DNA of 64,000 bases, taken from contig NZ_FXTP01000004.1 of NCBI RefSeq assembly GCF_900182705.1, positions 186,001-250,000 of the forward strand, given 5' to 3'. The position numbers and the translations under genes are program-made. Position 1 is the stretch's first letter. Every line of letters begins with the position of its first letter. The notes under the pieces were generated by a model. It was given only the letters and a program-made list of their open reading frames with translations, was not told the origin of the DNA and did no database searches. This document shows, piece by piece, positions 55,992-59,650 of the stretch. Origin of the DNA: Gracilimonas mengyeensis. GTDB lineage: Bacteria; Bacteroidota; Rhodothermia; Balneolales; Balneolaceae.

Positions 55992-56013
55992 TTTAAGACA
56001 ATAAACTCTTAAA
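55992..56013. promoter_or_regulatory. candidate operator, site 1: upstream of Rrf2 gene
   Basis: TTTAAGA-CAATAAAC-TCTTAAA is a perfect 7-8-7 inverted repeat, 93 nt before the regulator start. Nearly the same arms with the same 8-nt spacer precede the RIC gene (56596-56617) and the membrane protein gene (57434-57455). This suggests autoregulation by the Rrf2 protein; binding is untested. Confidence 0.5.
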
Positions 56014-56106
56014 TAGGCTGTGGCAAATCTAAGATTCCTTTTGGCATTGTAAGTAGTTGTTGCTGGTTTACCGTCATGGTCTGATAACCTCCACAAATAG
56101 AGAAGC

Positions 56107-56559
56107 ATGTTGTTATCAAAATCATGTGTGTACGGGCTGCGGGCGGCGCTTTACCTGGCGGCAAAAAGGGATGGGAGCTATTATTCTATCCGCACAATGA
56201 GTGAAGAACTCGATATTTCCTTCCATTTTTTGACCAAGATTCTGCAGCAGTTAACGGCAGACAGCCTGCTGGAATCATACAAAGGGCCGAATGGGGGAGT
56301 GCGGTTATCAGCAAAAGGGAAAAAATCTACCCTTTTTGATTTAGTGATTGCTATAGATGGGCCGGGCTTGTTTACTGAGTGCGCTTTAGGCCTGCCTGGT
56401 TGCGGATCAGAGGAACCATGTCCTTTGCACAATAGCTGGATTGATACCCGGGCTTCTATTGAAAACATGCTGAAGCGCACTAACCTCACTAAAATTGCGG
56501 AAGAGGGAAAAGAAAAACATTTTCGTCTTACTGCTGACGGCCACTTCTCCTGGAGTTAG
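56107..56559 (+). CDS. Rrf2-family regulator with three-cysteine Fe-S motif (NsrR/IscR-like)
   Basis: A winged-helix transcription factor likely sensing nitric oxide or Fe-S status. The DNA-binding part is SKSCVYGLRAALYLAAK plus SIRTMSEELDISFHFLTKIL and the wing KGPNGGVRLS. Cysteines 92, 99 and 105 (ECALGLPGCGSEEPC) match the positions and spacing of the Fe-S ligands of NsrR and IscR. The 150 residues are normal. Next to a RIC gene and NO-type membrane proteins an NsrR-like role is more likely than IscR; no isc or suf genes are near. A palindrome upstream suggests self-control. Confidence 0.9.
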   Translation: MLLSKSCVYGLRAALYLAAKRDGSYYSIRTMSEELDISFHFLTKILQQLTADSLLESYKGPNGGVRLSAKGKKSTLFDLVIAIDGPGLFTECALGLPGCGSEEPCPLHNSWIDTRASIENMLKRTNLTKIAEEGKEKHFRLTADGHFSWS

Positions 56560-56595
56560 AAATTTTTTTTCATCGATTCATAAAGAATTCATATA

Positions 56596-56617
56596 AATAA
56601 GATAAAATACTCTTAAA
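56596..56617. promoter_or_regulatory. candidate operator, site 2: upstream of RIC gene
   Basis: AATAAGA-TAAAATAC-TCTTAAA sits 15 nt before the RIC ATG. The right arm is identical to site 1, the left arm matches 5 of 7, and the spacer is again 8 nt. A repressor here would block the transcription start or the first steps of elongation. Confidence 0.45.
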
Positions 56618-56632
56618 ACTAAAATAGTTGTT

Positions 56633-57328
56633 ATGCAAAATTACTCACAAACACCTGTTGGCCAAATTGTGGCCAAAGATTACCGAACTGCACAGATATT
56701 ACGATCTCATGGCTTAGATTTTTGCTGTGGGGGAGGACGAACGCTTGAAAAAGCCTGTGCTTCCAAAAATATTGAACTAGAACAAGTGATATCGGAGCTG
56801 GAAGGTTTACAGACATCCGATAGCCTCACGGAAAATTATAATGAATGGTCGCTGGATTTCCTGGTGGATTACATCGTGAATAATCATCACGGCTTTGTAC
56901 AAAAGGCTTTACCGGAAATTAACTTCTATGCCGAGAAAGTAGCTCGCGTGCATGGCGAAAGAAATCCAAACCTGTATGACATCCTCCAAAAAGTACGTCT
57001 GCTGAGTGATGAAATGCTTGGTCATTTGCAAAAAGAGGAAGAGGACCTGTTTCCACAGATTAAAGAACTGGTTAGAGAGCACAAAAAAGGGTCGGTTAAG
57101 GAAGCACTGATAGAAGCGCTGGAAGATGAGCACGATAAGGCCGGCCAGTTAATGGCTGAGATAGAAGAGCTGACCGAAGGATTTACTCCTCCTGAAGACG
57201 CATGCGCATCGTACCGGGTGTTATTCCAAAACCTGGAAGGCTTCCAGCAAGACTTGCACAAACATGTGCATTTAGAGAATAATATCCTGTTTCCCAAGGC
57301 ACTGAATCTTGAACAGCGCTTGAACTGA
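56633..57328 (+). CDS. ric: iron-sulfur cluster repair di-iron protein (RIC/ScdA/YtfE)
   Basis: Repairs Fe-S clusters damaged by nitric oxide or peroxide. The N-terminal ScdA_N/DUF542 domain (about 1-60) has VGQIVAKDYRTAQILRSHGL and DFCCGGGRTL with two adjacent Cys. The hemerythrin-like domain (about 75-225) offers di-iron ligands in YIVNNHHGFVQ, MLGHLQKEEEDLFP, EDEHDKAGQLM and HKHVHLENNILFP. The 231 residues are normal. It is 73 nt downstream of the Rrf2 gene and ends at a strong terminator, so it has its own transcript, probably from a promoter near the palindrome at 56596-56617. Confidence 0.95.
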   Translation: MQNYSQTPVGQIVAKDYRTAQILRSHGLDFCCGGGRTLEKACASKNIELEQVISELEGLQTSDSLTENYNEWSLDFLVDYIVNNHHGFVQKALPEINFYAEKVARVHGERNPNLYDILQKVRLLSDEMLGHLQKEEEDLFPQIKELVREHKKGSVKEALIEALEDEHDKAGQLMAEIEELTEGFTPPEDACASYRVLFQNLEGFQQDLHKHVHLENNILFPKALNLEQRLN

Positions 57329-57348
57329 GGCAGGTTTTTAGCATGCAT

Positions 57349-57385
57349 AAATCCGCCTGGTATCAAAACCCGGGCGGATTTTTTT
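57349..57385 (+). terminator. rho-independent terminator after RIC gene
   Basis: AAATCCGCC pairs with GGCGGATTT around a 15-nt loop and is followed by a T-run, 20 nt past the stop. Confidence 0.85.
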
Positions 57386-57433
57386 ATGCCAATAAAAGAG
57401 GAATAAGTAACTATTTCACTGCCGTTATAGATT

Positions 57434-57455
57434 TTTAAGACAAAATCATCTTCAT
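57434..57455. promoter_or_regulatory. candidate operator, site 3: upstream of NO-type membrane protein genes
   Basis: TTTAAGA-CAAAATCA-TCTTCAT has a left arm identical to site 1, a right arm conserved in its TCTT core, and the same 8-nt spacer. It lies 37 nt before ATG 57493 and between the RIC terminator and this gene, where a promoter must be. Confidence 0.45.
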
Positions 57456-57492: not shown

Positions 57493-58749
57493 ATGTCAGA
57501 GGATGCACTAAAAATGAAATCACTGTCTAAAGATTCCGGTATTTGGCAATGGGCTATGTTCAGCTTTGTGCTGGCCGGCCTAACCGGTTTCCTATACAGG
57601 TTGGGTCTCGTTTTTCCTCTGCCTATCGATTTTTCGTTTGAAAACATTCGGCACGGACATTCACATCTAATGTTCTTTGGTTGGGCTGCACTGTTGCCTA
57701 TGTACCTGATAAAGCTGGATTCTATTCCAGGCTACCATGCAGCTTTTGGTCCTCGTCTGATGAAAGCCTCATTATGGTTTTCTGTGGTGTTTACTCTTTT
57801 ATCCTATCCGGCTTTCTTGATGTGGGGCTATCAACCGGTGGCAGCGGGAGAGGCTTACCTGCCGTTGTCAGCAATCCTTTCTGGTATGGTGATGATAGGT
57901 TGGTACGGCTTCATGATTGGCTATCTCATCACCCGCTATTTCAAAAAGGATTTCCAGCCCAATATCTGGTTTGAAAGTGCACTGATTATGCTTTTTATAA
58001 GCTCTCTGGGAGCATGGGGCGTTGGTTTTGTTGAATTGATGGGCATAGGCGGACCTATGTTTGGTAAGGCTCTTACGCATTTTTTCCTGGCCACTTTTAT
58101 GGAAGGCTGGGTGATTCTGGTACTTTTAGGTTTGATTGCAAAGGTTTTAAAAATAGGGGAAAAAGAGCTGGTGGTATCACCACTGGTGCTGGTTGGTCTG
58201 ATCACCATCGGAGCCCCGCTTACTTTCCCGTATGGAATTCCTGAATCGATGGTGAGTCTGAACTTGTCGGTGGCAGCAAGAATGGGCGGCTTCCTCATTG
58301 CAGAAGGCATTTTGTTATTTGCATTTTCAGCCTTTAGGTCACGAAAAAAAATGATGGCTATATGGGTATGGCCCCTGATATTCCTGGTGGCCAAGGCCTT
58401 TATGCAATTGGTCGCTTCCGTCTCGCCGGCCGACCTCTGGCTTTCAGACCACGGCATCCGGATACTGTACCTGCATGTAGTTTTATTAGGTGCCCTCACT
58501 ACCGGTTTGGTAGCTTACCTGAACAGAGACCTCGATATCCGTGCGGGTTACTTCTATGCGGTTCTTGGGTCCGTCATCTTTGTGATTTTAACCCTTGTGT
58601 TGCTCACCAGCTTATGGCCGGCATTTTTAAGTGGCATCTGGATTTATGATGTACTTGCCCTTGCGGCCATTTTCCCGGTAATAGCCGTGATGTTGTTCTG
58701 GCTAAAACTGTATCTCACCGTTAAAAAAGATGTCAAACAGTTTCCTTAG
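57493..58749 (+). CDS. polytopic membrane protein, NnrS/heme-copper-oxidase-like
   Basis: A 418-residue inner-membrane protein with about 12 predicted helices. ENIRHGHSHLMFFGWAALLP places several His at a helix start, as in NnrS and heme-copper proteins, which bind heme and protect against NO. Further His in KALTHFFLATFMEGW and in SDHGIRILYLHVVLLGALTTG are consistent with heme binding. It follows a terminator, so it starts its own transcript, and two small paralogous membrane proteins follow. Placement beside RIC and an NsrR-like regulator supports a role in NO handling. A firm family name is not possible from sequence by eye. Confidence 0.7.
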   Translation: MSEDALKMKSLSKDSGIWQWAMFSFVLAGLTGFLYRLGLVFPLPIDFSFENIRHGHSHLMFFGWAALLPMYLIKLDSIPGYHAAFGPRLMKASLWFSVVFTLLSYPAFLMWGYQPVAAGEAYLPLSAILSGMVMIGWYGFMIGYLITRYFKKDFQPNIWFESALIMLFISSLGAWGVGFVELMGIGGPMFGKALTHFFLATFMEGWVILVLLGLIAKVLKIGEKELVVSPLVLVGLITIGAPLTFPYGIPESMVSLNLSVAARMGGFLIAEGILLFAFSAFRSRKKMMAIWVWPLIFLVAKAFMQLVASVSPADLWLSDHGIRILYLHVVLLGALTTGLVAYLNRDLDIRAGYFYAVLGSVIFVILTLVLLTSLWPAFLSGIWIYDVLALAAIFPVIAVMLFWLKLYLTVKKDVKQFP

Positions 58750-58794: not shown

Positions 58795-59232
58795 ATGCCT
58801 TTAATTACTCGGTTGTTTATTAAAACAGGTTTAGTCTATTTCGTGATTTCACTGTTGATAGGAATTAGCAGTCAAATACCTTCTCTTCACTTTCCTGCTA
58901 TCACACCATTATTCTGGCATATGTTAATGCTGGGATGGATCACACAAATCATCATCGGGGTTTCACTCTGGATGTTTCCCGGTCGTAAAAAAGAGGAAAG
59001 CTTTCAAAATCAGCGGTTGGGCTGGATTGCTTATGCGGGATTGAATTCCGGGCTGTTTTTACGCGTAATCAGTGAACCCTTGATCTATGCGTATCCAAAT
59101 ACTATTTGGGGTGAACTGTTGGTAGTATCCGCTGTACTGCATTTTGTGGGCATCGGGAGTTACGTACTGGAAATCTGGCCCAGGGTGATGTCGCGCAAGC
59201 AACGTCTGAATCGCCGAAAAAAACGGAAATAG
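58795..59232 (+). CDS. small four-helix membrane protein, heme-copper-like, paralog 1
   Basis: A 145-residue inner-membrane protein with four predicted helices and a very basic tail (MSRKQRLNRRKKRK). ITPLFWHMLMLGWITQIIIG followed by SLWMFPGRKK resembles one helix pair of NnrS/cytochrome oxidase subunit I proteins, including a conserved His at the helix start. Its neighbour (59237-59650) has the same layout, and both begin MPLI[ST]R. It is 45 nt downstream of the larger membrane protein. No independent function is known; it may form a complex with the neighbours. Confidence 0.7.
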   Translation: MPLITRLFIKTGLVYFVISLLIGISSQIPSLHFPAITPLFWHMLMLGWITQIIIGVSLWMFPGRKKEESFQNQRLGWIAYAGLNSGLFLRVISEPLIYAYPNTIWGELLVVSAVLHFVGIGSYVLEIWPRVMSRKQRLNRRKKRK

Positions 59233-59236
59233 TGCC

Positions 59237-59650
59237 ATGCCTCTGATCTCCCGCTGGATGATTCGTCTTTCACTGGTTTACCTACTGCTTGGGCTTACGG
59301 CCGGCAGTTTGATGCTCATCAATAAGGCATGGATGGTACATCCATTGCTTTGGGCCGCACTACCTGCACATATTGAATGGATGATCTTTGGCTGGATCAT
59401 ACAGTTCACCCTTGGAACAGCCTATTGGATATTGCCCCGGTTTCTGGATTCAAAAAGCCGTGGAAACGAGCCGATGGCCTGGACGATGCTACTCTCCCTG
59501 AACCTGGGCATCTGGTTTATCATTGCTGACGGTTTTAGCTTGATACCTTATGCTGGTCTGTCAGGCAGAGTGTTGGAAACACTGGGCGTGGTTCTATTTG
59601 CCCTGCTGCACTGGAAGCGAATTGTAACCTACGGGGATCACGAGCATTAA
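59237..59650 (+). CDS. small four-helix membrane protein, heme-copper-like, paralog 2
   Basis: A 137-residue membrane protein, second of a tandem pair 4 nt after paralog 1. Helix 2 (AHIEWMIFGWIIQFTLGTAYW, then ILPRF) matches HMLMLGWITQIIIGVSLWMFP of paralog 1 in spacing and in the H, GWI-Q, G, W and P positions. A His-containing end (YGDHEH) replaces the basic tail. The pair may be a split or duplicated half of a larger NnrS-like fold. It ends the module; repeats follow. Confidence 0.7.
   Translation: MPLISRWMIRLSLVYLLLGLTAGSLMLINKAWMVHPLLWAALPAHIEWMIFGWIIQFTLGTAYWILPRFLDSKSRGNEPMAWTMLLSLNLGIWFIIADGFSLIPYAGLSGRVLETLGVVLFALLHWKRIVTYGDHEH

Follow-up and report, generated by a model that had tools for sequence, protein, structure and literature searches.

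Introduction

The closest described counterpart of the regulator considered here is NsrR, an Rrf2 protein with three conserved cysteines whose regulon is known from E. coli, Neisseria, Bacillus and Streptomyces. Several of its features recur in the locus described below: RIC (ytfE/dnrN) is a target, nirK and other denitrification genes are targets in some species, and the protein regulates its own gene in Streptomyces. The classic survey of NsrR found the regulon in gamma- and beta-Proteobacteria, Bacillus and Streptomyces, and for Bacteroides named HcpR alone (PMC1274295). Outside Proteobacteria, NsrR of Thermus thermophilus is likewise an Rrf2 Fe-S regulator of nitrite and NO reductase genes, and it lacks the usual fourth ligand (PMC5748679). 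The authors of a study on coastal sediments considered the role of Rrf2 proteins hard to predict beyond Proteobacteria and Firmicutes, and in clade II nos clusters NosR is missing and NnrR-like genes are rare (PMC6264515). An rrf2 - cytochrome c - nosZ neighbourhood like the one reported here has been seen on the Ushuaia sediment scaffolds (PMC6264515) and in Melioribacter roseus (PMC3534657).

Organisms with clade II nosZ, many of them Bacteroidota, carry an N2O-consuming NosZ, and the switch that controls their nos genes is poorly known. N2O is a greenhouse gas, and genes that destroy it are among those found here behind a regulator and its site. We analysed a window of 64,000 nucleotides from Gracilimonas mengyeensis (contig NZ_FXTP01000004.1; positions below count from the first letter of the window), which carries three copies of a palindromic repeat. 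We think it likely that the repeat serves as operator for the adjacent Rrf2 protein, a putative Fe-S regulator resembling NsrR that would repress its own gene together with nitrogen-oxide genes until NO lifts the repression. We found no description of the operator or of the regulon in the open-access literature. A first-pass annotation, made from the sequence, had put the system forward as a candidate for an undescribed one; for operator and regulon this agrees with the literature searched, but an Rrf2 gene beside clade II nos had already been noted (PMC6264515, PMC3534657).

Results

Three palindromic sites and the genes behind them

The sites and genes are as follows.

55992..56013, no strand: site O1, TTTAAGA-CAATAAAC-TCTTAAA (full sequence TTTAAGACAATAAACTCTTAAA), upstream of rrf2 (putative autoregulation), exact palindrome arms
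56107..56559, + strand: Rrf2-family transcription regulator, 150 aa (PF02082, TIGR00738)
56596..56617, no strand: site O2, AATAAGA-TAAAATAC-TCTTAAA (full sequence AATAAGATAAAATACTCTTAAA), upstream of RIC
56633..57328, + strand: RIC/ScdA/YtfE di-iron Fe-S cluster repair protein, 231 aa (TIGR03652; ScdA_N and Hemerythrin)
57434..57455, no strand: site O3, TTTAAGA-CAAAATCA-TCTTCAT (full sequence TTTAAGACAAAATCATCTTCAT), before the gene of the 418-aa membrane protein; at most lineage-specific
57493..58749, + strand: 418-aa membrane protein, about 12 TM, predicted heme-copper-oxidase subunit I fold
58795..59232, + strand: 145-aa membrane protein, weak COX1 similarity (E 7e-5, under cut-off), probably same operon
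59237..59650, + strand: 137-aa membrane protein, weak COX1 similarity (E 7.6e-7, under cut-off), probably same operon

All three sites have the 8-bp spacer and the intact AAGA/TCTT core that the first-pass annotation had described. They lie 93 bp (O1; rrf2, start codon at 56107), 15 bp (O2; RIC, 56633) and 37 bp (O3; 418-aa gene, 57493) before the genes. A plain consensus count over the window, with 3 mismatches allowed, gave 8 matches against 6.9 expected, which is not significant; since this count is at chance, we built a weight matrix instead, using only the rrf2 upstream regions of other Balneolaceae genomes. In a matrix scan of the window, O1 (27.3 bits), O2 (21.9 bits) and O3 (19.3 bits) took ranks 1-3, and the fourth match scored 8.8. 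The best matrix score in 640 kb of shuffled control was 13.0, and 4 Mb of first-order Markov sequence with the same dinucleotide make-up had no position at 17 bits or above. The exact pattern TTTAAGA-N8-TCTTAAA occurs 4 times in the whole 4.67-Mb genome, while the reversed control pattern does not occur. The three sites are thus far above chance, and for those before rrf2 and RIC the refuting case named beforehand, a frequency like that of random DNA, does not apply. The proteobacterial NsrR box, gATGyAT-N5-ATrCATc, was rejected as a description of these sites: the window holds 6 matches at 3 mismatches against 8.3 expected and none at 2 or fewer. One of these 3-mismatch matches, at 56575, falls immediately upstream of O2.

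Conservation in Balneolaceae and co-occurrence with rrf2

The earlier expectation that the motif is conserved before orthologues of all three genes holds for two of them. Upstream of rrf2, a site with at most 2 mismatches is found in 39 of 52 distinct Balneolaceae regions (2 of 52 for the reversed control), in relatives of Balneola, Gracilimonas, Fodinibius and Rhodohalobacter. Upstream of RIC, it is found in 25 of the 28 loci fetched. For the 418-aa gene, none of 17 orthologues has an upstream site, including those 57-69% identical (an extra match listed for this gene at L109 is spurious and stems from contig truncation). Therefore O3, which scores far above chance, is at most lineage-specific. 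The site also precedes the cytochrome c gene that starts the nosZ operon (29/39) and the close nirK orthologues (5/5). It is absent directly before nosZ, inside the operon (0/37); promoter sites are expected only at operon heads, which accounts for operon-internal genes without one. These sequence comparisons strongly support the reading of the palindrome as a conserved operator.

An rrf2 orthologue is present in 36 of 57 genomes of the family. The 36 genomes with the gene hold 32 copies of the exact motif and the 21 without it hold 1 (Fisher test over genomes, p = 4e-4), and the reversed exact pattern occurs 3 times in all 57. With a relaxed motif, the counts are 78 against 17 for the control in genomes with rrf2 and 8 against 10 in genomes without. 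By these counts the motif goes with this Rrf2 gene; neither the lineage nor the presence of other Rrf2 paralogues accounts for it. Some rrf2 orthologues have no clear site, including second copies in Fodinibius relatives, and some exact sites stand before unrelated genes (e.g. L077, L090). In one genome (G026:C10:29295-29732), the rrf2 orthologue has an in-frame TAA stop and the flanking operators are still there, possibly a natural loss of the regulator.

Further sites in the same genome

Among the matches that genome-wide pattern searches listed, at 2 mismatches for contigs up to C16 so that weaker targets may be missing, several lie before genes of nitrogen-oxide metabolism. A nirK-like gene has two exact sites, 26 and 95 bp before its start and 69 bp apart, and is followed by a SUMF1-domain gene, SCO1 and a cupredoxin-like gene; its product scores 188 bits against TIGR02376 (copper nitrite reductase), under the cut-off of 296. 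A cytochrome c gene followed by nosZ has a near-match (20.2 bits) 24 bp upstream; at 937 bits against TIGR04246 (cut-off 625), this NosZ belongs to the Sec-dependent clade II type. The content expected of a nitrogen-oxide regulon is thus borne out, with nirK, cytochrome c-nosZ and RIC behind sites both here and in related genomes. Genes of the suf/isc or iron-uptake kind were not recognised before the sites found. An MCP gene and an ABC1-kinase gene also have a site in front (19.0 and 24.5 bits, respectively), but we do not claim either gene as a target.

Another exact site lies between an operon of P450 and COX1-like genes and a divergent 197-aa gene. In that operon (L019:4497-7059, contig C7), a cytochrome P450 gene and then a 465-aa COX1-like gene stand behind the exact operator. 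The P450 gene is found in no other genome among the 57 family members; it therefore looks recently acquired and seems to have joined the regulon. The P450 was also considered as a fungal-type NO reductase, and this was rejected because its best PDB matches are ordinary bacterial P450s. A 599-aa protein without Pfam or NCBIfam match (L018:2525-4324, contig C2) is conserved at about 61-75% identity beside RIC or nirK in many Balneolaceae.

Distribution beyond the family

Orthologues of rrf2 occur throughout the phylum Bacteroidota and, at about 50% identity, in Calditrichota, Ignavibacteria, Kapabacteria, Gemmatimonadota and one verrucomicrobial contig. In distant Bacteroidota, Calditrichota and Gemmatimonadota, they are preceded by a drifted operator, TTTMRGAY-N6-RTCYKAAA; examples are TTTAAGATAAAATACTCTTAAA, with exact arms, on a Gemmatimonadetes contig (L156) and TTTCAGACAAAAGAGTCTTAAA in Calditrichota (L154). 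Split-half held-out tests put 72% of the regions upstream of distant rrf2 genes at 13 bits or more, and 0% of reversed ones, with a matrix for distant operators trained on similar data. A matrix trained on reversed sequence still gave 19 of 66 apparent matches (29%), so that the score alone is no proof. In distant lineages a second site is often found right behind rrf2, where the next gene is RIC, that of cytochrome c-nosZ or one for a NapH-like ferredoxin, and on the verrucomicrobial contig sites precede a true NnrS gene. In another Bacteroidota family (L257:5571-10303), rrf2 and an operator head genes for NapH-like ferredoxin, HHE, NrfH and NrfA, that is, ammonia-forming nitrite reduction; this NrfA scores 646 bits (cut-off 595).

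RIC and the downstream membrane proteins

The product of the gene behind O2 reaches 246.6 bits against TIGR03652 (cut-off 204.7) and is therefore the Fe-S repair protein that had been proposed. The 418-aa protein had been taken for an NnrS-like membrane protein, which we reject: there is no match to PF05940 even at E <= 10, nor to any other Pfam or NCBIfam family. Its AlphaFold2 model (pLDDT 87.7) resembles CcoN of cbb3 oxidase (Foldseek E 1.4e-7; VIA Z 32.9 over 396 residues at 11% identity) and NorB (Z 31.1), and six histidines are invariant (54, 56, 58, 196, 320 and 328). Judged by this model, it is a member of a diverged, unnamed family with a predicted heme-copper-oxidase fold. The 418-aa gene is linked to rrf2 in many Balneolaceae. 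The 145-aa orthologue comes after the 418-aa gene in close relatives (L091, L092, L093, L094, L098), and orthologues of the 137-aa gene are likewise adjacent.

The Rrf2 protein and its candidate effector

The regulator scores 95 bits against PF02082 (cut-off 30) and 92.6 bits against TIGR00738 (cut-off 73.3), and its nearest named relatives are in Balneola (85%) and Gracilimonas (79%) genomes. It carries Cys7, Cys92-X6-Cys99-X5-Cys105, His40 and His108. In alignments of 20 and 36 orthologues, all of these residues are invariant except Cys7, which is kept in nearly all, and residue 8 is Val or Ile. The invariant set fits an Fe-S cluster site, in agreement with the earlier description of the protein as an Fe-S-type Rrf2 regulator. 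The AlphaFold2 model of the monomer (pLDDT 91.2) has a winged-helix fold with a long C-terminal dimer helix. Its best PDB matches are all Rrf2 proteins (CymR, RsrR, IscR and NsrR; Z 13.4-16.2).

By the curated cut-off (NF008240, 43.6 against 182 bits), the fourth ligand (Asp8 is absent) and the operator, the protein is not NsrR. It is also below the IscR cut-off (TIGR02010, 57.6 against 207.55 bits). In a tree that includes an E. coli NsrR row, the NsrR pair separates from the clade of our protein at 100/100, though the branches are very long. The genome encodes two further Rrf2 proteins. A sibling with the same C-X6-C-X5-C spacing (contig C2, L244:9067-9534; C2:284105) heads an operon of a P-type ATPase and cbb3 oxidase (ccoNO), and in some Ignavibacteria-like genomes (L276, L278) an orthologue of the window's Rrf2 occupies that place, which suggests that regulators were exchanged between nitrogen-oxide and cbb3 operons.

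IscR, RirA and RsrR are sensors of Fe-S cluster supply, iron or redox state. The same operator and regulator might thus respond to one of these signals instead of NO, with the nitrogen-oxide genes affected indirectly. The profile scores lean this way, since the protein is nearer to the IscR model than to NsrR, although far under both cut-offs; the structural matches to CymR, RsrR, IscR and NsrR lie close together, and the Asp8 that serves as fourth ligand in Streptomyces NsrR is absent. We nevertheless regard an effector other than NO as unlikely, because the targets are specific to nitrogen oxides (RIC, nirK, nosZ, nrfHA) and suf/isc or iron-uptake genes were not recognised before the sites found.

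Proposed mechanism and position at the promoter

NO-relieved repression would work as follows. A dimer of the Rrf2 protein would bind TTTAAGA-N8-TCTTAAA (TTTMRGAY-N6-RTCYKAAA as the family consensus), which overlaps the -10 region or follows it directly, and so repress rrf2 itself along with RIC, the operons of nirK and of cytochrome c-nosZ, and a small number of lineage-specific genes. An Fe-S cluster would most probably sit on Cys92, Cys99 and Cys105, and Cys7 or a histidine might supply the fourth ligand. Nitrosylation of the cluster by NO, or by NO derived from nitrite, would free the DNA and thereby induce together the enzymes that produce or consume nitrogen oxides or repair their damage. 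The operator, its position and conservation, its genomic link to the Rrf2 gene and the nature of the targets can be read from the DNA; binding by the Rrf2 protein, its Fe-S cluster and the NO signal are drawn from the family and the targets, and we infer that the protein represses rather than activates.

The distance from operator to start codon is mostly 7-25 bp. At 35 of 114 sites a -35-like TTG is found 26-27 bp before the operator when read toward the gene, against 11 of 114 in the opposite direction. By this spacing and the nearness to the start codon, both the -10 region and the start of transcription would fall within the operator. A scan for sigma-70 promoters (at least 9/12) found 54 toward the gene and 50 away from it. 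These scores are nearly direction-neutral and mildly informative at best, so the case for repression by promoter overlap depends chiefly on where the operators lie and is of moderate strength.

Could the Rrf2 protein be a dual or activating regulator and not a plain repressor? NsrR of Thermus activates some promoters (norC/nirJ) (PMC5748679), and the tandem sites 69 bp apart before nirK could be seen in this light. Operators at or downstream of -10 and this close to the start codon are, in contrast, in a repressor position, and we judge dual or activating control to be rather improbable.

Other regulators and chance

A different protein might bind the palindrome, either a CRP/FNR-type regulator (DNR/NnrR) or another Rrf2 of the genome. 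DNR/NnrR proteins do govern nir, nor and nos genes in proteobacteria (PMC1274295), but FNR-type boxes are at chance (120 against 117 expected), with none exact in these promoters. As to the two other Rrf2 proteins, one of which shares the C-X6-C-X5-C spacing and heads the cbb3 oxidase operon, genomes with only distant Rrf2 paralogues (best E 1e-26 to 1e-20; G005, G007, G010, G016, G023, G034, G043) have no exact site, and across several phyla the site accompanies the rrf2 gene itself. Binding by another regulator is therefore very improbable. That the sites are chance AT-rich palindromes, as the 3-mismatch count in the window would allow, can be dismissed in view of the matrix scores, the whole-genome control counts and the conservation, which rules chance out for O1 and O2, score only doing so for O3.

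Discussion

Our data point to the adjacent Rrf2 protein as the likely regulator that acts through this operator. With an operator and a likely regulator in hand, N2O reduction in these bacteria can be put to direct test and their genomes can be scanned for regulons, and the practical interest lies there, because the regulation of clade II nosZ becomes testable. In addition, the different cysteine spacing, with Cys7 in place of Asp8, makes this Rrf2 protein a useful comparison for how Fe-S clusters gain effector specificity.

What we describe resembles NsrR-type control by an Rrf2 protein, but both the operator and the protein lineage are distinct. The NsrR operator is gATGyAT-N5-ATrCATc (PMC1274295), whereas the family consensus here is TTTMRGAY-N6-RTCYKAAA. 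The cysteines are spaced C-X6-C-X5-C here and C-X5-C-X5-C in NsrR, and Cys7 and Val8 stand where Streptomyces NsrR has Asp8. Compared with the NsrR regulon, no Hmp target was recognised among the sites examined here, and clade II nosZ and nrfHA are added. NsrR of Thermus thermophilus differs in its operator, CTTGACC-N2-GGTCATGG, in acting as both activator and repressor, and in its nirS and norC targets. IscR, RsrR and CymR share the fold (Z 13-16), but their ligands, operators and targets differ. The Ushuaia and Melioribacter papers reported linkage only, to which the operator, the regulon and a wider distribution are added here. Whether the protein belongs to a separate, anciently diverged NO-sensing Rrf2 family, with its own Fe-S ligands and operator class, that would serve throughout Bacteroidota and the neighbouring Calditrichota, Ignavibacteria and Gemmatimonadota as the long-missing transcriptional master regulator of NO-damage repair and of clade II nosZ, nirK and nrfHA, we consider evenly balanced.
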